DNA of 64,000 nt from Amphiura filiformis (lineage: Eukaryota > Echinodermata > Ophiuroidea > Amphilepidida > Amphiuridae): positions 77,006,713 through 77,070,712 of the forward strand of contig NC_092628.1 in NCBI RefSeq assembly GCF_039555335.1, in the 5' to 3' direction. The notes beneath the pieces were generated by a model, which saw nothing but the letters and a program-made list of their open reading frames with translations, ran no database searches and had not been told where the DNA came from. Of the stretch, positions 12,901 to 58,655 are shown in pieces (the first letter of the stretch is position 1; each line of letters starts with the position of its first letter). The translations under genes and the position numbers were made by a program.

Positions 12901-15900
12901 CTGATGAAAAGTATCCCTCCGCTGCGTGTTCCCTGGTAAGGGCCATGCAGCTAACTGCAGGTGCTCTAGTGATAGACTGGTACCTCCGCTCCGGGCATCC
13001 GGAGTAGATCTGGTACTGGGAGTGCCAGCGGCCTTGCCGCTAGCAGAATGACAATGCAGTCTTCCCACCCGAACTTGGCCACCACCCTCATGAGTAGTGA
13101 GATCGGAGGGACTGCATAAGCCGTCAGCCCTTCCCCAGTCTATGGACAGAGCGCGCACGGTGAATGCTTGGCGGTCCGCCACCCTTGAGCAGTACACCGG
13201 CAGTGGATGATTGCGATGAGATGCGAACAGATCTTTCGAGGGTGGTACATCCCTTGAAGATCGCCTGAGCGACCTCCGCGGAGCAAGGGACCATTCTGCT
13301 GGTCCCGACACCCTTCCTCGTGACAGATTGTGCGCGCGAGGATGCTGGTGACGCCTGCGATGTGTATCGCTCTCATCGTAATCTGCCTGAACTTGCACCA
13401 CCCTATCAGGTGTCGTGCATGCAGGCTCAATCGTGGTGGCCCGGAGTCCCTTGTCTGTTGGGGTAGGCTACCACGGTTGTGTTATCCGTCAGGACAACGG
13501 TATGTGATTCCACGATCACCTCCTCGTAAGCGAGGGAGGTTGATGTGAAACTCTGTCTCTATGGCCCCCATAGGCCCGAGACGTTGTCTCCGTGGATGTG
13601 GACCCCCAGCCCCGCTTTTGACGCTATGGTCGCTACTACGTGACATACCGGGGTGCAGGAAACCTGACACCCTGGGTCAAATTGGGCTGATGGGTCCACC
13701 ACCAGAGTTCCTCTCGCGCGATCTCCGACAACGGAACCGCGAGGGATAGTGGGTGACGACTGGGCCTGCAAGCAGGCTAGAAGGTGTAGTTGGGTAAGCC
13801 TAACGTCGAAACGGCAGTACAGTACGAGGTCTACCATACTGGCCATTAGGCCTACCACCTTCATCCATGCCACAGCGGGTTTTGCCCGAGACTCGGCCAC
13901 GAGTCAGGCACACCGCACCATGTTCGTCACCCGCTCGGGTGAGAGCACCGCGAACCCCTCCGTGAGGGTGATCTGGGCCCCTACAAATAGTGGTGTTCAT
14001 GCGTCGGGACCACGCTGGACTTTTTGAGCTGATCAAAAATCCAGGGTCCCGCACCCTACGGACTATCAACCCCATGAGACCCGTAGTCTTCAGTGGAGTG
14101 CGTCCGTATAGGAGCCAAACGTCCAGATAGCAACTGATGTTGACACCACTGTGCTTCAGGGACGATGCCACCGCTCTGACCAAGAGTGTTAAACACCCTG
14201 GGAGAGATGGACAGGCGGATGGCCGGTATCAAAACTGGTAATTTTGATCCTGTACCTAGAAGCGCAGATGCCTCCGATCTTGAGAGGCGATTGGCATATG
14301 CAGAGAGGCGTCCGAGAGATCTAGCGATGTTGTTCCCATGCCCCTGATGGGGCAGGCTAGCACCGAGGCGAGAGTCCCCATTCTGAACCTCTTGGGCCTG
14401 AAGAACGTGTTCAACAGCCTGCGGTTCCGGATGGGGCTCCCGTCGCCGGTCTTCCTTGGAGCCAATGGCTCCAAGATCACCCAGAACGGGGGTAGACCGG
14501 GACAATCGCCCGCTTGCGTGAGAAGCTGTGTGATCCCTGTCAGTAGTGCCCGACGCTGGGGGCCGCCTGACGGCACTACTGTGGACCTCTGAAATGTGCA
14601 GATTTAATGTGGGGAGACTGGGTTGCCAGTCTGTAACCCCCACTCACCACTGACCATACCCAGGCGCTCAAAGAGATGGTTTCCCACCTCTGGGTGAAAG
14701 CCATAAGCGGTCGTCCACTGGGAGATCCCCCTGTGGAAAAACCGCTGAGCCCCCCAGGAATGCTCTGCCTAGCTTCCCTTGGAAGAGCGCTTGCTCTTCT
14801 TCGGGGCTTGCCAGCTGTTCCTGTGCTACCCTTGCGCCTCCCAGAAATGGGTGCTGCAGAGGTAGTGGGCTCGGGTACTGTTGGTGGTGCACGGCCTGCT
14901 GAAGTCGGAGCTCCTACCCATGGTAAGGGCAGTTTCCGACCTCTTCAGAGTGCTCCCGTTGGTAGCTTCTTTGCACGGTCCTCCACCGTGGCGCAGAAGC
15001 ATCCAAAGAGAAAAGGACCCTGCCTTTCCATCGCTGAGCGATTGGAGTGGCAGGCCCCTCCCCGGGCGCTGAGTGGACACCCTATGGGCTAGGCCCATGG
15101 AGCTCTCGTTGAGGCTAGCTGTTAGCACCGCTAATAGGCTCACCTCATGCGGAAGAGCTCAGATGTTGTCTGAGCGTGATACGCCTGACGACATCTGGGT
15201 CCCTCTCGGATCCCCCAGGTAGGTCCCGTGGTCCTCCCGCGCTACACGCAGAGGAAGCGTGCAAAGCACGCCGCGCCATAGCTCTACTGAGCTCGACAGC
15301 CCCACGATATCTACCCGTGAGGTTTGCCGGGAATGAGAGTGCAGGCGTCCCCTGTGAGGAAGCAGCAGCTGAGCATCCTACTGAAAGGATCCCCTGGTCC
15401 TCCTCCATGGACTCCCCTTAGGGGGTGTCCGGAGGAAGATCAGTGCTGTTGCTCCTCATGCAGGGCAGCGGGGAAGGAGACTGTAGTGATGTCACTACCG
15501 GACTCAGCTTCCGACTCCTTTCCCTCGCCCACAGTATCCGTGATCATGCTCCGATGATGACGGTAACTGAGGACGGGCATCTGAAAGCGGGTAAGAAGGC
15601 ATAACCACTGTGTGGCTCCCGACTACCTGCCAGCAGAAGAGGGAGTACTCCCGCAAGACCCTGAGGTATCCGCCATGGCACCACTGGGTCCGCATACTCT
15701 CGCAGCTGTCGTCCTAGCGCTAGCAGCACGGGGCCTACCCTGATCAAGATCTGGGTTAGCCCCATGCCGCTGGCCTGGTCAACAGCTGATGTTGGTACTG
15801 CGTGGCCATCGCTAGGCGACACTTGCCAGGGTGCTAGGCCGTGGAAGAAACACCCTGCGGCGGGTACCACGGGCATACCCGCCGCAGCTGACCCTGAAAG

Positions 15901-18900
15901 GATCCGCCACCAGGGTAACCCCATGGTACTGCAGTACCAGCACCGCCCCCCTTGTTGCCACAGAGACTGTGGCGACTAAGGCGGTGCTGCGTACCGGTGC
16001 GGTATCAGCGTGGGTACCCGTGAGGGTTCCCAACTGTGGACCGCTGTACCCTCGCCACACTGCGCTTCCCTGTTTGGGGGATCAAGCTGTGTGCTGGCGT
16101 GGTACCGGCGCTGGTACTAGCGTAGGTGCCCGTGAGGGCTCCCGGCTGTGTACCACTGTACCCATGCCGCACTGCGTGCCCCGCAAGGGGATCAAGCCGT
16201 GTGTATGGGTACCCCGCTATACCGGCTGTCCCTTGGCTAGAGGGAGCTTGCCTAGTACCACGGGTAGCTGAGCGCAGATACCCCGATCAATCACCTCGCC
16301 ACCTGAATAGGCAGCGTCAATCAATGGAGCTATGCCCTGTTGATTTGACAGTGATCGATCAAGAGAGGGTAATTGACCCATTGACGGTAATGGATCACCC
16401 ACGCTCCGCTGGCTCTCGAGGACATAAGTGGGTTGTTGATCAGCTAGGCTGTTCAAGCTACTTACTGTACCCTCTAGAGCTTCGCCCAAGGTCGCTGTGT
16501 GTGGCGGACCACTCACGGCAGCTATGGGCGGGTGCATAGCGGCTACCACTGAAGTCAAGCCGTGGCTCGCCTTTGTAGCTGCCACCGAATGCACCTGGGT
16601 CGCTGTCCCGTGAGAGACTGCGAGCCCAACCCCTGAATAATCGCCAGCCAGTCCCTGTGGACAGCCAGCAGCTATTCTAGGGCCCAGGGTATCACTCGGC
16701 GGTCCCGCCATGGAACGCTGCCGTGTGACAACCCCAGTTGGTTCTGCTAAGACTACACCCACAGCGTTAGCAGCGGTATCGTCTCTGTTGAACCCATGCA
16801 TGCTAGGGTTCAACCCAGGCAAGCCCGGGGTGCCCTTGCATGCTGCCCGTCGCGGGCGACTACGGTGGCTCTTTGAGCCCGTAGACATGCCTGCAACAGA
16901 CGGGTGTCCTCCTGCTAAAAACCCGTGAGGATTTTCGCTGAGGGCTGGTATCCTCCTGCTACAAAACCCGCTAGGGTTTTCGCTGGTGGTTACCGCTCTG
17001 CTGCCTGCTACTTTGCTCCGGCGATAGTCAGTGCTTTCGCTGGCTGCTGAGCCTTTGGACGCGCTTAGCAGTCCCGAAGGAACCGCTTGCTTGTCCGGGG
17101 ACCGGAGCCCCTTAAGCAGACCTGCCATGACCCATAGGGGCTGTCACAGCAGAATCTACCGTGTCGACTGGTATCCTCCTGCTGCAAAACCCGCTAGGGT
17201 TTTCGCTGGTGGTTACCGCTCTGCTGCCTGCTACTTTGCTCCGACGTATAGTCAGTGCTTTCGCTGGCTGCTGAGCCTTTGGACGCCTTAGCAGTCCCGA
17301 AAGGAACCGCCTGCTTGTCCGGGGACCGGAGCCCCTTAAGCAGACCTGCCATGACCCATAGGGGCTGTCACAGCAGAATCCACCGTGTCGACCTTACCAG
17401 TGCCCTTGGTAGATTTCTTCTTCGTCTTATGGCGATGGACGGAGCCTATCCCAATCGTCAAGCTGGAACTCGGAGAGTCCTAAGCAAAAGAAAGACATCT
17501 AGAAGATCGTGAGCACTCCTGTGGGTGAAACAGAGCGGTGTGGGTCCCGCTCCGTCACCAGGGAAGGGCAAGCCCGACAGGGCCGAGGCGAAGCGAGGAG
17601 AAAGGGAGGGGGCACTACCCCCCAACACGCCGACTCAAGCCCAGTAAGCAAACCTGAGCACGGAGGCTGGTCGCTAACGTTAGTGGTAAAGTAAGGACTG
17701 GCTAACTTTATTACTAAAATGTCAGGCGGGTCCCTACCAATCCCCACCGTATGAATATCTGATTAACTCGTCTTTATTGGACGGTAATGAAGACATAACG
17801 ATAGAGTAATCACCCTAACATAGCAACAATAACCTACCGTACATGAAATACAATGTGTATGTACAAACATCTATTGTAACTTACAGGCTGCAATGGTTGT
17901 TTTACGTGGGAAACAAAATGAATGGCGCCAACGAATGCCATTTTGAATTGCTCGTGTGTCCCGTGATACAAACGGAGGCACGATATGTAGCTAAGTTTTG
18001 GATCGCTTTTTGTCACTTTTTCGCCAGAAAATGCCGTCAAAACTATCCTCAGCCGAACAATACCGGTTTGGTTTTACCTAAGGTGTGAAACTACAACCAG
18101 ATATCTCGCCTTTGGTCGAGAAATTGATACACAGTGCTATGAACAATCGATAGGCACGCCTGTGTCAGTCGGAGACCAAGGAGGATAAGGACGATCATAT
18201 GGTGTGACGTCACCTTTTGGGTGAGTCCACCGGGGATCGGGTTTTTTTGTTATTTATTCGTTTATGTGGGACAAAATGACTGTTGGTTTTTCCGCATCTC
18301 GGGATCGATGCAAGAAGTATCTTAATCAACATCGGAAACGGTAAGATCGACCGTGTACTGAGTCTAATTATATTGGTTTAATTATACTTAATTATAATTA
18401 TTTTAATCATATCTAAAAATTGGTTTATAAAAACCAAAGTTATAGGTTCAGCTAGCTCAGCTCGCGAGAATCACAAAATGGCTTGTTAACACAGCAATAG
18501 CACCCTAGGACCATTTGAGGATCATTCAGGGAAATCTCAAAATCATTTTAAAATGTCAAAATTTCTTGTGGACAAAATTTGGGGAAAACGTTCGGGAATG
18601 GAAACCATTCGCACAGCAGATTTCCCAAAGTTTTGCTCTATATGTCCATTTTCTTACCTCTTATGTGCACTTTCATACATTTCTTACTGTTTTGTGCTCC
18701 TTATTTGTTTTTATTATTGCTAATACCGACTTTAGTCTGATTGGATCAGAATTGTCGCTATTCCATCAAAACCTTGTATGCAAACATGGTTTCGATAGAA
18801 CAATGATGATATCTTGGTGTATCTTAGATCAATGCATAAGTACTTCATCTAAGACTGTATCCACAAACCAATGGTTGTGAAAGCAAAATGTTCATAAATA

Positions 18901-28109: not shown

Positions 28110-30095
28110 GATCCTGTACATAATGTTAAGAGTCTCTAACGTTTCGGTAGTAGACAGCTGAGAACGACGATGGGGTTTTCGCGGAGACCGCCTGACAGAT
28201 CTCGTCTAGGGACACCCCTCCTGTGGTAGGCTCAGGATGACAAATCAAACGTGTAGAGTGGGCTGTGGGGCGAAAATCCTTCTCGACTGCCCCGGAGTCC
28301 ACTAACCATTGGACCAGCATAAGGTCTGCTTATAGGCTGGACCGTGAGGCTCTGTGTGAGTTATGCAAACTAGCGGGAGTCCAGCGCTAGCTGAGTAAAT
28401 GGGAGCAATCACTCAAACACGATAATGCCCGAGGATCCTTGGTCCTCGAGCAGTACTCCCGCAGTTGATAATTGCGATGAGATGCAACAAATCTATTGAG
28501 GGATGGTACATCACCTCGAAGATCATCTGTACGATCTGCGGAGCATTTTGTTGGTCCCAACACCTTGCCTCGGGACAGATCGTCCGCGAGGATGTTGGTG
28601 ACTCCTGCAATGTGCATCGCTCTCAACGTAATCGGCCTGGACTTGCACCACCCTATGAGGTGCAGTGCATGCAAGCACAACTATGGTGACCTAGTGTCCC
28701 CTTGTCTGTTGAGGCAGGCTACCAAGGTTGAACGTGCCCCTTCCCCCCAGCAGCCCAGCTTTGACGCATTGTTAGTGACTATGTGTCGTACCGGCGGTGC
28801 AGGAAACCTGACACCCTGGGTCAAATTGGGCTGATGGGTCCACCACCAGAGTTCTTCTTGCATGATCTCCAACATTGGAAATGCGATGGCTATTGGGTGA
28901 CGACTGGGCCTGTAAAAGGCTAGAAGGTCCATACTGGCCATGAGGCCTAATATAACACCTTCATCCATGCCACGACGGGTGCAGCTTCTGACTCGGCCAA
29001 GAGTCTATAGTCACCCGCTTGGTGTCGTGAAGGCACCGCGATCCGCTTTGACGCATCGTTAGTGACTATGTGTCGTACCGGCGGTGCAGGAAACCTGACA
29101 CCCTGGGTCAAATTGGACTGATGGGTCCACCACCCGAGTTCTTCTTGCATGATCTCCAACATTGGCAATGCGATGGCTATTGGGTGACGACTGGGCCTGT
29201 AAAAGGCTAGAAGGTCCATACTGGCCATGAGGCCTAAAACCTTCATCCATGCCACGGCGGGTGCAGTTTCTGACTCGGCCAAGAGTCGTCACCCGCTTGG
29301 GTGTCATGAGGGCACCGGGATCCCCTCTATGAGGTTGATCTGGGCCCTTGAGAAAAGTGGCATCTGCATATGGACCATATGGGATTTCTTGAGGTTCATC
29401 AAGAACCCTAGATCCCACACTGTACAGACTACCAACTCCATGAGACAGGTTTTCTCTTTCTTCTTGTCTATATATATGAGCAAATCATCAAGGTAGCAAT
29501 AGGAAGCTCTGACCAGAAGTGTAAACACTCTGGGTGCGGTGGACACGCCGAATGGCAGACACTGAAACTGGTAAGTCTGACCAGGTACCTCTGGTGTTGA
29601 GGGGCGATTGGCACATGCAGATAGGTATCCACAAGATCCAGTGAGCAAGCCCACATACTCTTCATGGGGCAAGCCAGCACTGTAGGGAGAGTCTTCATCA
29701 TGAACCTCTGTGGCCTGATGAACTTGTTGCGTCTCAGTCATCGGACTTCTTGAGCAACAAAGAATGTGCTCCAAAAGCCCCTGAAACGGGGTGGGGGAGA
29801 GACCAGGACGATCGCCAGCTTTGCAAGAAGCTCTGTGATCTCTGACAGTAGTGCCTGACACTGCCATCTGACGGCACTACAGTGGACCTCTGAATAGGCC
29901 AGGTGAATCGAGGGGGACTGTAAACTCCAGTCTATAACCCCCTGTCACCACCGATAGTACATGTACCCAAGAGCCCGGAGAGATGGCTTTCCATCTCTGG
30001 GCGTAATGCAATAAGCGGCTGCCCACTGGGAGAACTCCCTGTGGGAGGTCCAGTGCTTGACTAGACCACCGTTTGCCCAGTGAGCATTCAAAGCT
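28110..30095 (-). mobile_element. Second DIRS copy, truncated and partly better preserved
   Basis: Minus strand: RT pieces at 29867-29304 (with QFQCLPFGVSTAPRVFTLLV and the intact catalytic YLDD), RNase H end at 28680-28387 (LIGWCKSRPITLRAMHIAGV, then TNILADDLSRG) and recombinase C-terminus at 28320-28126 (AHSTRLICHPE ... FSAVYYRNV, the HxxR and Tyr region). There are frameshifts between RT frames. No ITR, ICR or gag is present, so it is a 3'-biased fragment. A further partial duplication (about 28760-29010 repeated at about 29047-29300) is visible at its inner edge. Confidence 0.82.
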
Positions 30096-30935: not shown

Positions 30936-32862
30936 CGCTTGGGTGTCGTGAAGGCACCGCGATCCGCTTTGACGATCGTTAGTGACTATGTGTCGTGCAG
31001 GCGGTGCAGGAAACCTGACACCCTGGGTCAAATTGGACTGATGGGTCCACCACCCGAGTTCTTCTTGCATGATCTCCAACATTGGCAATGCGATGGCTAT
31101 TGGGTGACGACTGGGCCTGTAAAAGGCTAGAAGGTCCATACTGGCCATGAGGCCTAAAACCTTCATCCATGCCACGGCGGGTGCAGCTTCTGACTCGGCC
31201 AAGAGTCGTCACCCGCTTGGGTGTCATGAGGGCACCGGGATCCCCTCTGTGAGGTTGATCTGGGCCCTTGAGAAAAGTGGCATCTGCATATGGACCATAT
31301 GGGATTTCTTGAGGTTCATCAAGAACCCTAGATCCCACACTGTACAGACTACCAACTCCACGAGACAGGTTTTCTCTTTCTTCTTGTCTATATATATGAG
31401 CAAATCATCAAGGTAGCAATAGGAAGCTCTGACCAGAAGTGTAAACACTCTGGGTGTGGTGGACATGCCGAATGGCAGACACTGAAACTGGTAAGTCTGA
31501 CCAGGTACCTCTGGTGTTGAGGGGCGATTGGCACATGCAGATAGGTATCCACGAGATTCAGTGAGCAAGCCCACATACTCTTCATGGGGCAAGCCAGCAC
31601 TGTAGGGAGAGTCTTCATCATGAACCTCTGTGGCCTGATGAACTTGTTAAGTCTCCAGTCATCGGACTTCTTGAGCAACAAAGAATGTGCTCAAAAGCCC
31701 CTGAAACAGGGGTGGGGGAGAGACCAGGACGATCGCCAGCTTTGCAAGAAGCTGTGTGATCTCTGACAGTAGTGCCTGACACTGCCATCTGACGGCACTA
31801 CAGTGGACCTCTGAATAGTCCAGGTGAATCGAGGGGGACTGTAAACTCCAGTCTATAACCCCCGGTCACCACCGATAGTACATGTACCCAAGAGCCCGGA
31901 GAGATGGCTTTCCATCTCTGGGCGTAATGCAATAAGCGGCTGCCCACTGGGAGAACTCCCTGTGGGAGGTCCAGTGCTTGACTAGACCACCGTTTGCCCA
32001 GTGAGCATTCAAAGCTTCGGCTTAATTTTATTGCAATTTTACACTATTTTATACCAAATCAATTTGTGTTTACCGAATGCGTACATGTATGTGTAAACAG
32101 AACTTACTAATAGGGATGTCCACTGTCATTCTGTCAATATATTTGATGCTAGAACAGTTTCATACTTTATATTAGTGTATGTGTGCACTCACCCATGTAT
32201 TCTCTATGCAAACAAGGCTCCATGCACTAAGTCCAAGCCCTGATAAATGGTAACAATACTTGTTGTGGTCCAATTTATAGGCCTAAAACGGGGTGTTTCA
32301 AGAAATTCCTTATTCCACCAGAAAACATTAACAAAAATCTTTCCTGATTGGTCAGTAAATAGTGAGGACCTTCCTTTATCAAGGGATCAACTTTTTTTAA
32401 AAGAAAAAATGAATGAGATGAGAACTACAACAGGTTGAAGTGACACCATTCTGGATTGATTCAGACAAGCAAACTTACATAGGCCTACTCATAAAATTTA
32501 ATTATTTTTGAAGACAAAATGTGCAGGATGTTAAGAAATTAAAGAATGTTTAAGATTGTGTCCCGCACCATTCATGGACTTCAACAATTTAGAGTCCACC
32601 ACTAAAATCAGGCTAGCTACAGCCGCATAAAGCACACTTATATGGTACTAAATTACTACTACCATGCATAGCTCTATTGCATTGGCGCCCAAGTTGTAAA
32701 CATTGCGATTGTACATGTATCATGCACACCCTCATCAAAATAATGCATTTAAGGTAGGAGCATCGGATAATAGGCCCATGCAATAAAATAACCACTATTT
32801 AAAATCAGAATTATGTATCCATTTCAAATATATAACCAATTGAAGATAAGTCTTTACTCCAC
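30936..32862. repeat. Tandem segmental duplication, unit 2
   Basis: Near-identical to unit 1, with isolated substitutions and small indels (for example a few extra bases at about 32,169 and a shortened 'gccgcataaagc' at 32,622). The minus-strand RT frame at 31592-31224 again shows the intact YLDD motif. The high identity shows a recent event. Confidence 0.92.
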
Positions 32863-40124: not shown

Positions 40125-40739
40125 TGACAGCGTGGACCTTCTAGGTCTTACATTGAATAACAACTTGTCCTGGAACCAAGTATATCACCAAAATGTCTAA
40201 GACAGCTGGTCAGCAACTGGGACTCCTCAGAAGAGCATCACCCTATATTCTACCTGCACAGAGAGCCATCATCTACAAGGCCATGATACGATCAAAAATG
40301 GAATATGCCAGCAGTGCTTGGACTGGTACAACTCCCATCTCACTAGCTCAGCTTGACTCCATCCAAAATAGAGCTAAGCATGTCATTGGTCTGCCACTTG
40401 GTCTGAGTATGAAGATCATCATATTCAGCCATTGAGCCGCTGCAGGGCAGTTGGAGCAGCCATCCTCTTCCATCGTATGTTCTACAAGGATGCCCCTGAG
40501 TTATTATGCCAGCTGATGCCAGATATCCATGTCCATGACCCCAGGTTGCGACGGTCTGTGAGATCCCATGACCTAGCAGTGGAAGTCCCAAGATCAAACC
40601 TTGTCAGCCATGAAAGATCATTTCTACCACCATTATGGAATTCTCTTCCTGCCCAAATTCCAGCCATTAGATTGAGGGCCAGCTTCAGCAGGGAGGTTAA
40701 TCGCTTTCTGGGTGCTTCCTCGTCAGCAGCTTCTAAATG
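40125..40739 (+). pseudogene. LINE reverse-transcriptase C-terminal remnant
   Basis: Three frames joined by two frameshifts (about 40,193 and 40,430). They read VDLLGLTLNNNLSW, then SKTAGQQLGLLRRASPYILP ... IRSKMEYASSAW, then VGAAILFHRMFYKDAPELL ... SFLPPLWNSLPAQIPAIRLR, with a stop at 40,737. This order (LLG..., thumb 'MEYAS.aW', terminal 'WNSLP') is that of jockey/CR1-like LINE ORF2. It is dead. Confidence 0.8.
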
Positions 40740-43584: not shown

Positions 43585-44400
43585 AGGGATGTGGAATGAG
43601 CATTTCAACAGTATTTTTGTGGGACATGAGAGCACATCAGACATATCGAATTGCATTCTGAATACGGAAAATGTCTTTCTGGTATCAAATAATTTTTATT
43701 TTTTGAAATTCACGATATAATACAAATTTTATGACAAATTATTAAAATTTGATATTTTTCACATTTTTGACATCACTGTCCTCAAAATAAATTTTATAAA
43801 TCTAATGATATATAGGTGTATATTATTATTAGTGAAATTACCACATCGTAATACAAATTTGTTTCGTATGGATGGTTTCACCCATCCACACTCGTCAGTT
43901 GCAATGTGTAAAATGACAAAGAATATGTCTTGAGTTTTGATGCACGCGCAAGAGGAATTAACGCAACCGCGGATCTTAAAGTTGCGCAACACAATACGCG
44001 TCGTAAGTGCGAGGAAAAGCCCGACGATCAATTGAAAATTTTGACCTTTCATATTGAAGATATGGATTTGTTTTTCCCAAAAGACCTAATTTATTTTGGT
44101 GTTTTGGGGAAAAAAATCCATATCTTCAATACGAAAGGTCAAAATTTTCAATTGATCGTCAGCTTTTCATCCCAAGTACATATCATCAGATTTATAAAGT
44201 TTACTTGAGTACTGTTAAATATAAAAATATCAATTTTTACTGATTTGCCATAAAATGTGTATTACATTGCGAATTTCAAAAAATCAAAATTATTTGATAT
44301 CAGAAGGACATTCTTCGTATTCAGAATGCAATTCTATATGTCTGATGTGCTCTAATGTCCCACAATAAATACTGTCCAAACGTTCATACCCCATGCCTTA
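43585..44400. mobile_element. Foldback element, family copy 1
   Basis: The outer arms share 'gtgggacatgagagcacatc' / 'gatgtgctctaatgtcccac' and 'gaattgcattctgaata'. The inner arms (about 44,035-44,062 and 44,130-44,160) share 'caattgaaaattttgacctt'. The whole 0.8 kb can fold on itself. A related copy is at 58,198-58,655. Confidence 0.75.
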
Positions 44401-47811: not shown

Positions 47812-48105
47812 GTATATTATACAGCGCCTTTCACATGTGTACATGTACCAAAGCGCTTTACATTTATTCTGCTGTCATTAGAATTATGTCAGCTGCCATG
47901 CTTAAGGCATGGTCATACCTTTAGGCGGCGCTCAATGGACAATATTCATAACAGCTCCCCATTTCACCCCTGGGTAGAGAGAGGCAAGTAAGGTAAAGCG
48001 CCTTGCCCAAGAGCACAACACGTTGGCACCGCCGGGGCTGGAACTCGCAATCCACCGATTACAAGGTAGAGCCGAGCCCGTACCGTTGCGCCAACGTGCC
48101 CTTAT
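47812..48105. repeat. Widespread 'gcgcctttcacatg / gccttgcccaagagcacaa' dispersed repeat
   Basis: The order 'agcgcctttcac ... aaagcgctttaca ... aaagcgccttgcccaaga ... gccggggctggaactcgcaa ... ttgcgccaacgtgccc' is that of a repeat common in marine animal genomes. Its 3' half recalls a tRNA-like B-box, but no intact tRNA can be folded. Confidence 0.6.
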
Positions 48106-48583
48106 CGGGCTAGTGCTACAGAATAGTGAAATCATTGTGTATTTTAGACCAGAAAGCTTTTGATGGGCCAAATTAATCTTTTTCCAAGATTGCAACCAAC
48201 ATTACCTCAAATCATTAAATTTTTTTTTTTCAAAATAGTTCAGAAATGATGATGCTTTTTTGGAAAAATGCACAATAGATACTATTCACCCTTATGCATA
48301 TTAAACTATATAGAATGGTTTGCTTGAAGCTGAACAGCAAATCACTAAAGTTGTAATTACCACTTGTATCAAGTAAACCAAATTATAGGTTCGTCCACAC
48401 TTTCTGCACCTCACACACTCAGAAATTAGCTAGAATATGTCCATAGTAGTAACTATTATTGCCATGGAAGTGAAAAAACTGATAATTACCATGATTACCC
48501 ATTATAATTACCTGAGCGTCTCGGCCTTTATACTGTAATTTAACACCAGGAGAAGCTCAAATTTGAAGTAAGAGCAATGTCAC

Positions 48584-48647
48584 TGTGTTCTTTGTGGGAC
48601 AACTCATACTTCATAATTTCACATGAGCTATTCCACAAAAACCAAAG
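48584..48647 (-). ncRNA. Isolated hairpin of the cluster family (outlier copy)
   Basis: Read on the plus strand, TGTGTTCTTTGTGGGACAAC, then a loop of about 15 nt, then ATGAGCTATTCCACAAAAAC. It keeps the family's arms but has GTGGGAC opposite ATTCCAC where most copies have mismatches. It lies 0.9 kb beyond the array with an unrelated spacer. Its lower stem (AATGT / ACATT) differs from all array copies, yet still pairs. Supports an individually maintained hairpin rather than a fragment of a satellite. Confidence 0.65.
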
Positions 48648-49513
48648 AACATGCCACATTCTCCGCAGTCCATGGTCCAATGAAACTCCTCGGCTAGCCG
48701 TCTTGCCTTTGCTGTAGTACAATCGCCAGTTCCTGCCCTAAAACTTATGAAATGGACAACATGCATTACTACAAAGGCGGTATACATTAAAACCATTCAA
48801 CAACACAAATATGCCCTATCTATGCATTTGCTTACTCATCTGTCATAAAAGACAGAATATATAAACACTATTTCCCACACTATTTTTACAAAACATGTGT
48901 GGCCATACATTGTCAAGAACATTTACTCTAGTAATTATTGTATTCTAACCTAAAATTATGAATAATCATACTTTCTAATTTCCTCTGATATTCCCATGTA
49001 TAATTGGTAGAAAGCAAGTGAAGTGGGTGAACATTACCATGCTACATAGGTGATCGGCTTATTTGCTTATTATATAACCACCCTTCAATAAATGGGCTAA
49101 CAAATAATAACCTATCCAAATTCTGAGTCATTGACCAGGAAAGAGCATTAGACTTTTACACAGTCTTTTTATCTAATTAATCCCATGAATAATGGTATGT
49201 ATAGGAATGTTATGCAAGATCATGTACTTACATGTTTTACCCAGAAATGGTCCTTGAATTTCCAAATGTAGATTAAAAATGCAGTTTGATGCTCAGCTAA
49301 AAAGAACATATGACCATGAATATACAAAAACAAAACATACTAAAACATGGGACATAATTAATTATAATTAATACAAATAAAATTTACCAAAACAAGCTAA
49401 ATAGGATAAAAATAATAACAAATTGTAGATCCAGGGACTAGTATAAGTACACTTTTTACCGAATGCAGATCTGCAACATTAATTGTCCGGTGTCAATTGA
49501 TGTGATGAGTTTG

Positions 49514-51260
49514 ATCAGAAATCTTTGTTCTTGTAGAACAACTCATGGTGAGATATTCGCATGAGCTGTTCCACAAAAACCAAGGATAACCGATGATCTG
49601 TCAGGAAACTTGATGTAGATCTGCAACACTAATTACTGGCTGTCGATTGATGTGATGAGTTTGATCAGAAATCTTTGTTCTTATAGAACAACTCATGGTG
49701 AGATATTCGCATGAGCTGTTCCACAAAAACCAAGGATAACTGATGATCTGTCAGGAAACTTGATGTAGATCTGCAACACTAATTACTGGCTGTCGATTGA
49801 TGTGATGAGTTTGATCAGAAATCTTTGTTCTTATAGAACAACTCATGGTGAGATATTCGCATGAGCTGTTCCACAAAAACCAAGGATAACTGATGATTCT
49901 GTCAGGAAACTTGATGTAGATCTGCAACACTAATTACTGGCTGTCGATTGATGTGATGAGTTTGATCAGAAATCTTTGTTCTTATAGAACAACTCATGGT
50001 GAGATATTCGCATGAGCTGTTCCACAAAAACCAAGGATAACCGATGATTCTGTCAGGAAACTTGATGTAGACCTGCAACACTAATTACTGGCTGTCGATT
50101 GATGTGATGAGTTTGATCAGAAATCTTTGTTCTTATAGAACAACTCATGGTGAGATATTCGCATGAGCTGTTCCACAAAAACCAAGGATAACTGATGATC
50201 TGTCAGGAAACTTGATGTAGATCTGCAACACTAATTACTGGCTGTCGATTGATGTGATGAGTTTGATCAGAAATCTTTGTTCTTATAGAACAACTCATGG
50301 TGAGATATTCGCATGAGCTGTTCCACAAAAACCAAGGATAACTGATGATTCTGTCAGGAAACTTGATGTAGATTTGCAACACTAATTACTGGCGGTCGAT
50401 TGATGTGATGAGTTTGATCAGAAATCTTTGTTCTTATAGAACAACTCATGGTGAGATATTTGCATGAGCTGTTCCACAAAAACCAAGGATAACTGATGAT
50501 TCTGTCAGGAAACTTGATGTAGATCTGCAACACTAATTACTGGCTGTCGATTGATGTGATGAGTTTGATCAGAAATCTTTGTTCTTATAGAACAACTCAT
50601 GGTGAGATATTCGCATGAGCTGTTCCACAAAAACCAAGGATAACTGATGATTCTGTCAGGAAACTTGATGTAGATCTGCAACACTAATTACTGGCTGTCG
50701 ATTGATGTGATGAGTTTGATCAGAAATCTTTGTTCTTATAGAACAACTCATGGTGAGATATTTGCATGAGCTGTTCCACAAAAACCAAGGATAACTGATG
50801 ATTCTGTCAGGAAACTTGATGTAGATCTGCAACACTAATTACTGGCTGTCGATTGATGTGATGAGTTTGATCAGAAATCTTTGTTCTTATAGAACAACTC
50901 ATGGTGAGATATTCGCATGAGCTGTTCCACAAAAACCAAGGATAACTGATGATTCTGTCAGGAAACTTGATGTAGATCTGCAACACTAATTACTGGCTGT
51001 CGATTGATGTGATGAGTTTGATCAGAAATCTTTGTTCTTATAGAACAACTCATGGTGAGATATTCGCATGAGCTGTTCCACAAAAACCAAGGATAACTGA
51101 TGATCTGTCAGGAAACTTGATGTAGATCTGCAACACTAATTACTGGCTGTTGATTGATGTGATGAGTTTGATCAGAAATCTTTGTTCTTATAGAACAACT
51201 CATGGTGAGATATTTGCATGAGCTGTTCCACAAAAACCAAGGATAACTGATGATTCTGTC
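49514..51260 (-). ncRNA. Hairpin sub-cluster A1 (12 copies), miRNA/hpRNA-like precursors
   Basis: Each hairpin is about 81 nt. The plus-strand arms are ATCAGAAATCTTTG...GAACAACTCATG and CATGAGCTGTTCCACAAAAA...AACTGAT. The stem has about 34 positions, with one bulge, a 2-nt internal loop and a 12-nt loop (gtgagatattcg or ttg). On the minus strand four recurrent A-C mismatches become G-U pairs, leaving an almost continuous helix of about three turns, as Drosha substrates have. If cut about 11 bp from the base, the 5' product on the minus strand would begin near TTGGTTTTTGTGGAACAGCT. The arms are the most conserved part across the whole cluster. Processing and transcription are inferred, not shown. 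Confidence 0.6.
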
Positions 51261-51299
51261 AGGAATCTGGATGTAGATCTGTAATAATATCAATTCTTA

Positions 51300-51700
51300 G
51301 GATGCATTTTTCAGTATCTGTGTTTTGTGTAGAACAACTCATGAGCAGTATATAAAACATGAGCTGTTCCACAAAAACCAAGGATAACTGATGATGTGTC
51401 TGGAAACTGGATGTAGATCTGCAGTGTTAATTCTTGAGCTGTTCTGCAAAAGCTGAAAATAACTGCTGATGAAGGGAAGCCAACTGTAGATCTGCAACAT
51501 TAATTATCCGGTGATATGATGAGTTCGACCAGAAATCTTTGTTCTTATAGAACAACTCATGGTGAGATATTTGCATGAGCTGTTCCACAAAAACCAAGGA
51601 TAACTGATGATCTGTCAGGAAACTGGATGTACATGTAGATCTGCAATGTTCATTCTTGAGCTGTTCTTCAAAAGCCGAAGATAACTGTTGATGAAGGGAA
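51300..51700 (-). ncRNA. Degenerate interval of array A: one divergent hairpin, one typical hairpin, two half-hairpins
   Basis: A divergent hairpin at 51319-51385 (loop 'agcagtatataaaa', lower stem TCAGT/ACTGA) resembles copies at 53725 and 54225. A normal copy starts at 51535. Lone 3' arms (ttgagctgttctgcaaaagc at about 51434; ttgagctgttcttcaaaagc at about 51655) lack their partners and cannot fold. Confidence 0.5.
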
Positions 51701-51756
51701 GCCGAAAGAAGATCACAACACTAAATTATCGGGTGTTGATTGATGTGATGAGTTCG

Positions 51757-53660
51757 ACCAGAAATCTTTGTTCTTGTAGAACAACTCATGGTGAGATATT
51801 TGCATGAGCTGTTCCACAAAAACCAAGGATAACTGATGATTCTGTCAGGAAACTTGATGTAGATCTGCAACACTAATTACTGGCTGTCGATTGATGTGAT
51901 GAGTTTGATCAGAAATCTTTGTTCTTATAGAACAACTCATGGTGAGATATTCGCATGAGCTGTTCCACAAAAACCAAGGATAACTGATGATTCTGTCAGG
52001 AAACTTGATGTAGATCTGCAACACTAATTACTGGCGGTCGATTGATGTGATGAGTTTGATCAGAAATCTTTGTTCTTATAGAACGTTCTTATAGAACAAC
52101 TCATGGTGAGATATTCGCATGAGCTGTTCCACAAAAACCAAGGATAACTGATGATTCTGTCAGGAAACTTGATGTAGATCTGCAACACTAATTACTGGCT
52201 GTCGATTGATGTGATGAGTTTGATCAGAAATCTTTGTTCTTATAGAACAACTCATGGTGAGATATTCGCATGAGCTGTTCCACAAAAACCAAGGATAACT
52301 GATGATTCTGTCAGGAAACTTGATGTAGATCTGCAACACTAATTACTGGCTGTCGATTGATGTGATGAGTTTGATCAGAAATCTTTGTTCTTATAGAACA
52401 ACTCATGGTGAGATATTCGCATGAGCTGTTCCACAAAAACCAAGGATAACTGATGATTATGTCAGGAAACTTGATGTAGAACTGCAACACTAATTACTGG
52501 CTGTCGATTGATGTGATGAGTTTGATCAGAAATCTTTGTTCTTATAGAACAACTCATGGTGAGATATTCGCATGAGCTGTTCCACAAAAACCAAGGATAA
52601 CTGATGATTCTGTCAGGAAACTTGATGTAGATCTGCAACACTAATTACTGGCTGTCGATTGATGTGATGAGTTTGATCAGAAATCTTTGTTCTTATAGAA
52701 CAACTCATGGTGAGATATTCGCATGAGCTGTTCCACAAAAACCAAGGATAACTGATGATTCTGTCAGGAAACTTGATGTAGATCTGCAACACTAATTACT
52801 GGCTGTCGATTGATGTGATGAGTTTGATCAGAAATCTTTGTTCTTATAGAACAACTCATGGTGAGATATTCGCATGAGCTGTTCCACAAAAACCACGGAT
52901 AACTGATGATTATGTCAGGAAACTTGATGTAGAACTGCAACACTAATTACTGGCTGTCGATTGATGTGATGAGTTTGATCAGAAATCTTTGTTCTTATAG
53001 AACAACTCATGGTGAGATATTCGCATGAGCTGTTCCACAATAACCCCCGACAACTGATGATTCTGTCAGGAAACTTGATGTAGATCTGCAACACTAATTA
53101 CTGGCTGTCGATTGATGTGATGAGTTTGATCAGAAATCTTTGTTCTTATAGAACAACTCATGGTGAGATATTCGCATGAGCTGTTCCACAAAAACCAAGG
53201 ATAACTGATGATTCTGTCAGGAAACTTGATGTAGAACTGCAACACTAATTACTGGCTGTCGATTGATGTGATGAGTTTGATCAGAAATCTTTGTTCTTAT
53301 AGAACAACTCATGGTGAGATATTCGCATGAGCTGTACCACAAAAACCAAGGATAACTGATGATTCTGTCAGGAAACTTGATGTAGAACTGCAACACTACT
53401 GGCTGTCGATTGATGTGATGAGTTTGATCAGAAATCTTTGTTCTTATAGAACAACTCATGGTGAGATATTCGCATGAGCTGTTCCACAAAAACCAAGGAT
53501 AACTGATGATCTGTCAGGAAACTTGATGTAGATCTGCAACACTCAATTGATGTGATGAGTTTGATCAGAAATCTTTGTTCTTGTAGAACAACTCATGGTG
53601 AGATATTTGCATGAGCTGTTCCACAAAAACCAAGGATAACTGACGATTTTTCTGGAAACA
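51757..53660 (-). ncRNA. Hairpin sub-cluster A2 (13 copies)
   Basis: Copies start at 51764, 51915, 52066, 52230, 52381, 52532, 52683, 52834, 52985, 53136, 53287, 53434 and 53571. They have the same structure as sub-cluster A1. The copy at 52066 carries an exact 13-bp duplication (GTTCTTATAGAAC twice, 52072-52097). The copy at 52985 has a damaged 3' arm (53040-53051). Copies at 53434 and 53571 have shortened spacers. Most units are otherwise almost identical. Confidence 0.6.
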
Positions 53661-53724
53661 TTCTGATGAAGGAAAACGAAATGTAGAACCGTAATATCAA
53701 TTCATATGATTCATTTTTACAGTA

Positions 53725-53792
53725 TCTGTGTTTCATATAGAACAACTCATGAGCATTATATAAAACATGAGCTGTTCCACAAAAACCAAGGA
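53725..53792 (-). ncRNA. Divergent hairpin between the two arrays
   Basis: Arms 'tagaacaactcatg' and 'catgagctgttccacaaaaa' with loop 'agcattatataaaa' and lower stem CAGT/ACTG. Similar to the copies at 51319 and 54225, hence probably a relic of the ancestral type. Confidence 0.55.
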
Positions 53793-53794
53793 TA

Positions 53795-54215
53795 ACTGAT
53801 GATGTTTGGAAACATTTTGGAGAAGTAAAAACTGAATGCAGATCCCGAGATCCGCAATGTCAATTCTTTGTAAGCTAATTTACAAAATAAAAAAAATAAT
53901 ATAAAAATAAAAATGAATGAAATGGTTCATACAACTATAAATATTGCACTCACCCAGTGAACTTGTGATTTGCCTGGAAACACTCACATTACACATTGTA
54001 TAATCTGAAAAAGGGAAAAATTTAACACAAATCTGCAACATAAACATGCAAATGCAATACCTGGTATCTACTGATGAGAAATCGAATTACACAACATTTG
54101 CAACATTAATTCTCATGATGTTACCTTGTGTTTGTAGACCAAATAAACAGACGCTGAAACGATAAAACTGGATGACACAACAACATCTGCAAGCAGTAAT
54201 TTCTCATGATGCATT
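53795..54215. other. Spacer between hairpin arrays
   Basis: AT-rich, with remnants of the unit spacer ('gatctgcaacat', 'ctcatgatg') but no foldable hairpin. Suggests decay of former units. Confidence 0.5.
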
Positions 54216-54221
54216 TCTCAG

Positions 54222-54915
54222 TATCTGTGTTCTTTGTAGAACAACTCATGAGCAGTACTAATAAGCACGAGCTGTTCTACAAAAACCAAAGATTACTGAT
54301 GTAGTAGTTCACATTCCTCCATGATGATCTGGTATGTAGACCCCGATGATGTAATTATCAAGAACCAGTGTTCTTTGTAGAACAACTCATGGTGAATGAT
54401 GAAAACATGAGCTGTTCAACAAAAACCAAAGGTAGATGATATCAAACTGCAGTGAAATCCAATCCAATCCCCAATAGCCTGGTCATTAAGCATCCATCCC
54501 AGCTGTCATCGATATGTCAGAAAACAGATGAAAACATTGGGAAGTTTGGATTAACAACCAGTGTTCTTTGTAGAACAACTCATGATACAGACACATATGA
54601 GCTGTTCCACAAAAACCATCAGTCATCAATCACTACAGTAGTTAGTAGCAGGAGAGGAATCAAAACCAACTGATGAAGATGCAAATGAAGATCGAGTCAC
54701 ATGATATGTGTTCTTTGTAGAACAACTCATGAAAATTAGGAAAAACAGGAGGTGTTCGACAAAAAACAAACATCACTGACAAAGTAAATTATCAAACAGC
54801 TTCTCGTTGGACAACATGACATGCAATTGATGAATTAAAAAATGATCAGTGTTCTTTGTAGAACAACTCATGGGTTACATACATGTATCATGAGCTGTTC
54901 CACAAAAACCAGAAA
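54222..54915 (-). ncRNA. Hairpin sub-cluster B1: five individually diverged copies
   Basis: Hairpins start at 54225, 54368, 54560, 54708 and 54849. Each keeps 'gttctttgtagaacaactcatg'-type and 'catgagctgttc(c)acaaaaacca'-type arms with an unrelated loop and spacer. Lower stems differ and several pair well (54225: TCAGTA with TACTGA; 54849: ATGAT with ATCAT). The copy at 54708 has lost several pairs (aggaggtgttcgac). The pattern of constant arms and variable loop and flank is typical of microRNA genes of different ages. Confidence 0.62.
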
Positions 54916-54974
54916 TCATCTAACAACATGACACAAGAAAACACTGCTGCCATTCTTCACTTGAGGAGCTTTTG

Positions 54975-57160
54975 TTCAATAGCCTGTGTTCTTTGTAAAA
55001 CAACTCATGGATTAACTTCCACAACATGAGCTGTTTTACAAAAACCACAGATCATTGATAATGATCAGACTGAAAAGAAAAAATTGCCAAGATGTATTAT
55101 TCAAAGACATGTGTTCTTTGTAAAACAACTCATGAATTAAAGAATATACTTCACATGAGCTATTTTACAAAAACCAAATGTCATTGAAGCAAGCAAAAAC
55201 AAACAAACAAAAAAATACTGCAAGAGTTGGAGTTGGTTATCAATGTTCTGTGTTCTTTGTAAAACAACTCATGGTTAAAACAATTTACATGAGCTGTTCC
55301 ACAAAAACCAAAGACCATTGATAATGATCACAAACTGAAAAGAAAAACAGCTCACCATGATGTATTATTCAAAGACCTGTGTTCTTTGTAAAACAACTCA
55401 TGAATTAAAGAATACACTTCACATGAGTTATTTCACAAAAACCAAATGTCATTGAAGTAAGCAAGAATATAAACAAAAAATAATGTAAGACAACTTGGGA
55501 GTTGTTTATCAATGTTCTGTGTTCTTTGTAAAACAACTCATGGTCTAAGACTATTCACATGAGCTGTTCCACAAAAACCAAAGATCATTGAATATAATGA
55601 AAAACAATAGACCACAGTCACAAAATGAACAAGAAAAAGACCATGATGTGTCATTCAAAGACCTGTGTTCTTTGTAAAACAACTCATGAATAAAAGATAC
55701 TTCACATGAGTTATTTCACAAAAACCAAATGTCATTGAAGAAAGCAAAAACATAAACAAGAAATAATGAAACAACTTAGAGTTGTTTATCAATGTTCTGT
55801 GTTCTTTGTAAAACAACTCATGGTTAAAACAATTTACATGAGCTGTTCCACAAAAACCAAAGATCATTGATAATGATCGCAAACTGAAAAGAAAAAGCTC
55901 GCCATGATGTATTATTCAAAGACCTGTGTTCTTTGTAAAACAACTCATGAATTAAAGATACTTCACATGAGTTATTTCACAAAAACCAAATGTCATTGAA
56001 GTAAGCAACAAACAAAAAATAACAAAGTGGCTTGGAGTTGGTTATCAATGTTCTGTGTTCTTTGTAAAACAACTCATGGTTAAAACAATTTACATGAGCT
56101 GTTTCACAAAAACCAAAGATCACTGACAATGATCGCAAACTGAAAAGAAAAAGCTCGCCATGATGTATTATTCAAAGACCTGTGTTCTTTGTAAAACAAC
56201 TCATGAATTAAAGATACTTCACATGAGTTATTTCACAAAAACCAAATGTCATTGAAGTAAGCAACAAACAAAAAATAACAAAGTAGCTTGGAGTTGGTTA
56301 TCAATGTTCTGTGTTCTTTGTAAAACAACTCATGGTTAAAACAATTTACATGAGCTGTTCCACAAAAACCAAAGATCATTGATAATGATCGCAAACTGAA
56401 AAGAAAAAGCTCGCCATGATGTATTATTCAAAGACCTGTGTTCTTTGTAAAACAACTCATGAATTAAAGATACTTCACATGAGTTATTTCACAAAAACCA
56501 AATGTCATTTAAGTAAGCAACAAACAAAAAATAACAACGTAGCTTGGAGTTGTTTATCAATGTTCTGTGTTCTTTGTAAAACAACTCATGGTTAAAACAA
56601 TTTACATGAGCTGTTCCACAAAAACCAAAGATCATTGATAATGATCGCAAACTGAAAAGAAAAGCTCGCCATGATGTATTATTCAAAGACCTGTGTTCTT
56701 TGTAAAACAACTCATGAATTAAAGATACTTCACAAGTTCACATGAGTTATTTCACAAAAACCAAATGTCATTGAAGTAAGCAACATAAACAAAAAATAAT
56801 GTAAGGTAGCTTGGAATTGTTTATCAATGTTCTGTGTTCTTTGTAAAACAACTCATGGTTAAAACAATTTACATGAGCTGTTCCACAAAAACCAAAGATC
56901 ATTGATAATGATCGCAAACTGAAAAAAAAAGCTCGCCATGATGTATTATTCAAAGACCTGTGTTCTTTGTAAAACAACTCATGAATTAAAGATACTTCAC
57001 ATGAGTTATTTCACAAAACCAAATGTCATTGAAGTAAGCAACATAAACAAAAAATAATGTAAGGTAGCTTGGAGTTGTTTATCAATGTTCTGTGTTCTTT
57101 GTAAAACAACTCATGGTTTAAAACAATTCACATGAGCTGTTTCACAAAAACCAAAGACCA
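54975..57160 (-). ncRNA. Hairpin sub-cluster B2: 17 copies in alternating dimers
   Basis: Two types alternate. Type 1 starts at 54985, 55249, 55519, 55799, 56054, 56310, 56566, 56832 and 57090 (loop like gttaaaacaattta, lower stem TATCAATG with CATTGATA). Type 2 starts at 55110, 55379, 55664, 55925, 56181, 56437, 56692 and 56959 (loop like aattaaagatacttca, lower stem TTCAA with TTGAA and GAC with GTC). The dimer period is 255-285 bp. The arm reads TGTAAAACAACTCATG here instead of TGTAGAAC..., and in copies such as 54985 and 55110 the other arm changes to TTTTACA, restoring pairing. Confidence 0.62.
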
Positions 57161-57735
57161 TTGAACATGAACAAGATTGTTGACAAATATTAATAGAGTA
57201 CCCAACTGGAGTTGTAACTTATCAATGTTCTGTTTATCAATGTTCTCTTCAATGACTGAACATGAAGGACTACTCCATATTTCAGAAAAATACAGCACTA
57301 AATTTTTGAGACAAGTCTTTGAATTTTATGATTGCAATTGTAAGAAATCATTCAAAATAACATGTTTTAGGCCCATTGTCCCCCAAATTACAAAAATATC
57401 AAACTTTAATATTCCCTGTTAAAACTAAAGGATTAAGATTGAGCAAGTGTGGATAATATCCTTTGTAAAAAAAAAAAAAAAATTCTGAGCTCATAGCCTA
57501 TACTCGAAATTGTGAATGCTAGCCTCAGACTTGTGACAAGTCTTTGAATTTTTGTGACTGCAATTGTAAGAAATCATTCAAAATTAGGAATTAAAAATGG
57601 ATTAAGATTGGGCAGTTTTATTTCATAAAACAGTACATCATCTTTTGAATCCAAATAAACTTAGATCTGTATTTTACCGAAATAGGGAGTAAGAACAAAT
57701 AGAATGCAGTACCCACTTGGAGTTGTTTGTCAATG
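57160..57735. other. Insertion inside the hairpin array
   Basis: A non-hairpin stretch interrupts the array. It contains a local repeat (ttgaattttatgattgcaat ... at about 57,318 and a diverged copy at about 57,545, each followed by 'gtaagaaatcattcaaaat'). Confidence 0.5.
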
Positions 57736-58082
57736 TTCTGTGTTCTTTGTAAAACAACTCATGATTAAAAGCAATTTACATGAGCTGTTTTACAAAAACC
57801 AAAGATCACTGGACATTGTTGAGAACTGCAACGAATATAGCGGTGCCTTCTCAGATGTAGTTCATCAATGTTCTGTGTTCTTTGTAAAACAACTCATGGT
57901 CTAAGAAAGCATCTCACATGAGCTATTTTACAAAAACCAAGGATCATTGAACAAGAACAGAATCAGGAAAAAATGACACTAATCTTGTGTTTACTTGAGG
58001 CATTTACCAATGGTCTGTGTTCTTTGTAAAACAACTCATGGTTAAGGTTAAAAACATGAGCCATTTAACAAAAACCAAGGAT
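57735..58082 (-). ncRNA. Hairpin sub-cluster B3 (three copies), distal end
   Basis: Hairpins start at 57739, 57874 and 58016. The copy at 57874 pairs GTAAAAC with CTATTTTAC; 58016 is more eroded (gagccatttaac). Lower stems such as TCAATG with CATTGA remain in 57874. They form the 5' end of the cluster if it is transcribed from the minus strand. Confidence 0.58.
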
Positions 58083-58197
58083 CATTGATTTCAAAAATAC
58101 AAAAATAAAAGAAACTTGTTCTCAGAAAAAAGAACCTGCATTGGGCAATTCATTTAAACCATCTTTATCATTAAATTTTATAAATATAATTCCTCAA

Positions 58198-58655
58198 TTA
58201 AGGGCTCTGGTATGAGCATTTGGAAAGTATGTTTTGTGGGACACAGCAGATATATCAAATTGCATTTTGAATATGAAGAACGTCCTTCTGATATCAAATA
58301 ATTTTGATTTTCTGAAATTTGCGAAATAACACTTTATTGCAAATGATTAAAAATTTATATTTTTGATATTTAATGCTACAAAAAGTAACAGTCCTCGAAG
58401 TACTAACGATGTACTTAAAGTGTATGTAGCTGGGATAAAAAGCTGCAGATCAATTAAAATTTCCCCCCCAAAAAAAAAAAAAAAATTAGGCCTTTTTTGG
58501 AAAAAAAGGTATATCTTCAGTTTTAAAATGTCAAATTTTTGAATTGATCATCAGCTTTTCATCCCAGCTACATACACATAAGTACGGTACATATCATTAT
58601 AAAGTTAATAAAGTTTACTTCGAGGACTGTCATATATCAAAACACCAGAGCCCAT
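58198..58655. mobile_element. Foldback element, family copy 2, abutting the hairpin cluster
   Basis: Ends 'gggctctggtatgagcattt' and inverse 'accagagccc'. Internal arms 'gtagctgggataaaaagctg' / 'cagcttttcatcccagctac' and 'cagtcctcgaagta' / 'tacttcgaggactg'. Shares 'gtgggaca', 'aaattgcatt.tgaata' and 'tgatatcaaataatttt' with the element at 43,585-44,400. Confidence 0.75.

Follow-up and report, generated by a model that had tools for sequence, protein, structure and literature searches.

A tandem array of 54 hairpins, very probably of the mir-2009 family, on the minus strand of an Amphiura filiformis contig

Layout of the array and its surroundings

The window considered here, that is, the whole stretch of DNA analysed, comprises 64,000 nucleotides of the Amphiura filiformis contig NC_092628.1 (positions 77,006,713 to 77,070,712 of the forward strand, assembly GCF_039555335.1). 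A Hamming scan, in which both arms were searched in the orientation of the original prediction, recovered the 54 hairpin copies claimed there as 54 paired dyads, all lying inside 48559-58114; they share a single orientation within 9.6 kb. The features of this region are as follows:

48559-58114, minus strand: array of 54 precursor copies, very probably of mir-2009 (54 units and Rfam RF03590), presumably transcribed from right to left
48577-48652, minus strand: u01, an isolated copy with a predicted mature 3p sequence equal to spu-miR-2009 (23/23)
49498-51276, minus strand: first block of array A, 12 near-identical copies (u02-u13) with a period of 150-151 bp
51294-51417, minus strand: u14, a diverged copy between both blocks of array A; its tree partner is u29 (support 81)
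51380-51520, minus strand: relic, a 5p-arm-like piece whose partner arm was not found
51512-53669, minus strand: second block of array A, 14 copies (u15-u28)
51600-51745, minus strand: second relic, a 5p-arm-like piece
53702-54948, minus strand: u29-u34, six diverged copies with dissimilar spacers
54960-57190, minus strand: array B, 17 copies (u35-u51), types B1 and B2 mostly alternating, with a 256-bp dimer period from 55641
57714-58114, minus strand: u52-u54, three copies on the side of the putative promoter

The distance between the arms ranges from 12 to 25 nt over the 54 units, and the loop of 12-20 nt given earlier fits 53 of them, the exception being u48 with 25 nt. Most start-to-start distances (125-154 nt) agree with the claimed spacing of 125-151 nt, but outliers of 164, 193, 218, 229, 499, 648 and 939 nt also occur. 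In the same way, the description of conserved arms with differing loops and spacers holds between subfamilies, whose spacers are unlike each other, but fails within array A, where the spacers are near-identical. Tandem Repeats Finder detected the two main arrays, one with a 151-bp period (within 49463-53659) and one with a 128/256-bp period (55641-57164). A BLASTN search of the cluster against the window gave one match outside the cluster, 30 bp of low complexity, and a dispersed transposon was rejected, since no copies were found elsewhere in the window.

No host gene was found among 10 ORFs searched with Pfam, which gave one match, a reverse transcriptase piece under the curated cut-off. Two very similar ORF sets lie about 1.9 kb apart on the minus strand (29059-29876 and 30979-31646), and one of their ORFs matches RVT_1 weakly (E 8.6e-6, under the curated cut-off). 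Two overlapping plus-strand ORFs at 40157-40737 have no Pfam match and appear retroelement-like by eye; the second of them has 59 relatives in ENA proteins, with up to 91% identity (88% for the best-scoring one). A MITE-like palindrome at 44008-44168 is 88% self-complementary (RNAfold -101.5 for 44000-44180) and matches several other Rfam miRNA families (MIR7504, E 2.8e-12, below its cut-off), these matches apparently arising through structure. Directly to the right of the array, on the presumed promoter side, there is a further palindromic element (58411-58585), which shares 80% identity across 82 nt with a portion of the 44-kb palindrome. The region 12000-18000 has a GC content of 53-61%, compared to mostly below 44% in the rest of the window, and contains tandem repeats of 112 and 224 bp.

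Strand and family identity

Folding, pairing, the placement of CNNC motifs and the known miRNA place the array on the minus strand instead of the strand as first described. When the units were folded on both strands, as had been asked for in the original prediction, the MFE was lower on minus than on plus in all 54, with RNAfold means of -35.0 kcal/mol (mean z -6.9) on minus and -23.5 kcal/mol (mean z -3.8) on plus; the MFE of a unit alone is unexceptional when set beside 300 random 90-mers from positions 1-48000 of the window (5% level -32.8, extreme -41.8). An animal microRNA gene is expected to form one hairpin with 16 or more nt of its mature strand in pairs. On the minus strand, a single-hairpin fold was obtained for 53 of the 54 units, and in 54/54 no fewer than 19 of the 23 positions of the predicted 3p miRNA are base-paired. 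The plus stem contains A-C mismatches at the sites of G-U pairs on minus. Counted over 24 consensus pairs in 20 representatives, pairs form in 462 of 480 cells on minus and in 403 on plus, and cells pairing on one strand only number 63 and 4, respectively, a count that favours minus somewhat, as the 24 pairs are the minus prediction. RNAalifold gave 24 pairs at -25.4 for minus and 13 pairs at -8.2 for plus. A plus-strand miRNA was ruled out by folding, pairing and CNNC.

It is very probable that the 54 hairpins constitute a mir-2009 array on the minus strand. In E-value mode, Rfam returned mir-2009 (RF03590) on this strand for all 54 copies over model positions 1-83 of 83, including the mature 3p sequence and seed, with scores of 41.2-87.8 bits and E values from 6.1e-7 to 5.1e-21 (25 matches in 54000-58200 and 29 in 48000-54100). 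Plus-strand matches to the same model were obtained for 51 of the 54 copies, each scoring below its minus match. In gathering mode nothing was returned, the best unit reaching 87.8 bits against a curated cut-off of 90 bits, which is a curation setting. So, an entire array of a known miRNA can be missed behind a curated score cut-off, as here, where Rfam at its default settings returned nothing.

An unrelated family matches the palindrome at 44023-44160 with E 2.8e-12, which indicates that strong hairpins inflate covariance-model E-values; for this reason, a local alignment to the Rfam consensus by sequence only was run. In this alignment, the 54 minus units scored 30-53. None of 540 mononucleotide shuffles exceeded 13, the palindrome did not exceed 11, and the highest-scoring tile in the remainder of the window reached 17; because they are nearly self-complementary, the units also scored 13-34 when read on plus. 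The leftmost copy, u01, is identical letter for letter (23/23) to spu-miR-2009, given as UGAGUUGUCCCACAAAGAACACA in a published table (PMC4669494). This alignment and the 23/23 mature match are the basis of the presumed homology to mir-2009, a family reported from sea urchin and sea star (PMC3247247, PMC4669494). The likeness extends over the full length of 83 positions, with the same arm, the same seed and one copy identical over 23 nt, whereas nt 9-11 are changed in the other array copies relative to spu-miR-2009, and in array A the 3' half is changed as well. The locus differs from the Rfam family in its 54 tandem copies and in scores below the Rfam cut-off.

The original prediction had considered a previously undescribed small-RNA locus and had recognised neither arm, because the complement was read. 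The miRNA family is already known (mir-2009, RF03590), and the locus belongs with the high-copy tandem miRNA clusters; the description as a microRNA-type cluster with conserved arms, on a par in size with known large clusters, was borne out. In the open full texts searched, no mir-2009 array or copy number is described, and the words "copies" and "tandem" have 0 occurrences in the main text of PMC3247247; the copy number may be on record in miRNA gene databases such as miRBase and MirGeneDB, or in supplements. Searches with the mature sequence gave 0 matches in viral contigs and 0 in prokaryote contigs, in keeping with an animal origin.

All 54 of 54 copies have the same seed, GAGUUGU. The mature sequence is UGAGUUGUUUUACAAAGAACACA in 20 copies and UGAGUUGUUCUAUAAGAACAAAG in 22, the rarer variants being UGAGUUGUUCUACAAGAACAAAG (3 copies), UGAGUUGUUCUACAAAGAACAC[A/U] (5 copies), the spu form (1 copy) and three singletons. 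Positions 9-23 vary between subfamilies, and one nt is missing in the 3' half in array A (26 copies). Among 20 representatives, 0/8 columns are variable in nt 1-8 of the 3p arm, and 4/8 of the facing 5p columns vary, with 10 of the 12 changed cells still paired; the loop and 5' flank show 0.64-0.65 differences per pair of copies. This contrast between constant 3p positions 1-8 and a drifting facing arm is what a 3p guide strand would lead one to expect.

Processing signals, covariation and history of the array

Pri-miRNAs contain a CNNC motif 16-18 nt downstream of the Drosha cut, which is enhancing and not obligatory. On the minus strand, this signal of animal microRNA genes is present, with CNNC starting 16-18 nt downstream of the predicted Drosha cut in 48/54 copies and in 17/20 representatives (23-nt 3p), the latter being the fairer count because the 54 copies are not independent. 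In same-width windows further downstream, the mean was 8.9/54 and 2.5/20, and the maximum 30/54 and 7/20. The same test on the plus strand, where 52/54 arms begin with TGAG, gave 6/54 copies and 3/20 representatives, and 0 to 7/54 with other 3p lengths. An apical UGU directly after the arm was found in only 24/54 copies.

An hpRNA or endo-siRNA source, in which neighbouring units would pair in long transcripts and Dicer would make siRNAs, is extremely improbable. In its favour, neighbouring units have arms that complement each other (pairs I1 and I3), but 53/54 units fold alone as one short hairpin, CNNC flanks them and the seed is invariant. Drosophila hpRNA loci are composed of tandem hairpins, and in this the present array resembles them; short pri-miRNA-type stems, flanking CNNC and the invariant seed distinguish it, and the hpRNA-type locus of the original prediction gave way to short hairpins with these two features.

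Covariation was assessed in 18 of the 20 representatives, u02 and u28 being left out because a 1-nt deletion shifts their register. The paired cells amounted to 91.4% compared to 88.7% in shuffles (0/500 as high), double-change cells to 23 compared to 10.6 (0/500 as high) and further pair types to 27 compared to 23.9 (15/500 as high), where the shuffles ignore relatedness and the structure is derived from the same sequences. The number of pairs with double change was unexceptional (6 compared to 4.6, 114/500 as high), and when the lower-stem register was set wrongly, the percentage of paired cells was unremarkable too (63/500 shuffles as high).

These results bear on the explanation that the array lacks small-RNA function and is a palindrome of satellite or transposon origin, whose likeness to mir-2009 stems from a dead ancestor copy. 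Tandem repeats, palindromic MITE-like elements in the same window and the two relics are compatible with it. At the same time, conservation is one-sided (nt 1-8 of the 3p arm against the facing arm), covariation and CNNC at a fixed distance are seen in diverged copies, and dispersed copies are absent within the window, so that this explanation is very improbable. The two relics, half hairpins at 51380-51520 and 51600-51745, have the appearance of dead mir-2009 copies.

In a quickly built tree, one branch sets array A (26 copies, support 92) apart from the remaining copies and another does so for B2 (8 copies, support 97), and B1, the diverged copies and u01 are placed unsurely on long branches. 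In array A, 10 of 79 hairpin columns and 11 of 72 spacer columns are variable (20 units); the hairpin being as variable as the spacer, the last amplification is too young, or too weakly constrained, for selection to be visible. This similarity, together with near-identity including the spacers, agrees with a sub-case in which only the diverged copies (u01, u14, u29-u54) work as miRNA genes and array A, a young satellite derived from one copy by unequal exchange, adds little. Moreover, the 3' half of the mature sequence is altered in array A, and one of its units, u18, has lost the single-hairpin fold with a 13-bp duplication. On the other side, 26/26 A units retain the seed and fold better on minus, and the two A representatives listed have CNNC at 16. 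We regard this sub-case of the mir-2009 reading as unlikely.

Proposed expression and comparison with known arrays

The array is likely to represent a single polycistronic pri-miRNA that runs from right to left, has expanded by tandem duplication and gives several mature variants with one seed. We infer transcription as a single unit and processing by Drosha/Dicer, in which one or a few minus-strand primary transcripts, started from a promoter to the right of 58114 and running from right to left, would bear up to 54 hairpins. Drosha/DGCR8 would cleave each hairpin base, aided by CNNC 16-18 nt downstream, and Dicer would free a duplex with the 3p strand, beginning UGAGUUGU, as the putative guide and a 5p partner near UGGUUUUUGUGGAACAGCUCAUG; the assignment of the guide to 3p is made by analogy with spu-miR-2009. 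With the seed GAGUUGU present in every copy, the array should repress a single shared group of mRNAs that contain ACAACUC sites, and the copy number would serve dose, that is, high output of one seed. We are much less sure of this dose function than of the mir-2009 identity.

Two possible minus-strand poly(A) signals inside the array, AATAAA at 57622 and ATTAAA at 57410, are a point against the single transcript. In the region 48500-58200, the minus strand has 1 AATAAA and 1 ATTAAA and the plus strand 8 and 13, counts made non-independent by the repeats.

Very large one-seed miRNA arrays are best known from vertebrate early embryos, and the miR-430/427 family has the seed AAGUGCU. The present array resembles the miR-430/miR-427 arrays of fishes and Xenopus in its many tandem copies with several variants, 54 copies carrying one seed here, but differs in sequence and seed, GAGUUGU being found in 54/54. 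For miR-427, 171 precursors are reported in X. tropicalis and 33 over 55 kb in X. laevis, and for miR-430 more than 2000 in zebrafish (PMC10569791); miR-430 forms tandem clusters in fishes (PMC10417697). The copies in X. laevis occur in both orientations (PMC10569791), in contrast to the single orientation here. The copy number of miR-427/430 has been proposed to accelerate the clearance of maternal mRNAs (PMC10569791, PMC10417697), and in Drosophila such mRNAs are cleared by miR-309, which has no comparable array (PMC10417697).

By analogy, the echinoderm array may have evolved independently of the vertebrate ones as their convergent counterpart, an early-embryo burst of the GAGUUGU seed clearing maternal mRNAs; this proposal is speculative and rather unlikely as a whole. 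A 54-copy echinoderm array would be an unrelated second case beside the vertebrate ones, which would open the idea that copy number provides a rapid embryonic dose to comparison. In the published table of sea cucumber coelomocytes, the spu-miR-2009 row has three values that read 0.0000 (PMC4669494). An early-embryo role of the mir-2009 array is possible, by the same analogy, and miR-2009 has been detected by northern blotting in embryos of one sea urchin and one sea star aged 1, 2 and 3 days (PMC3247247).
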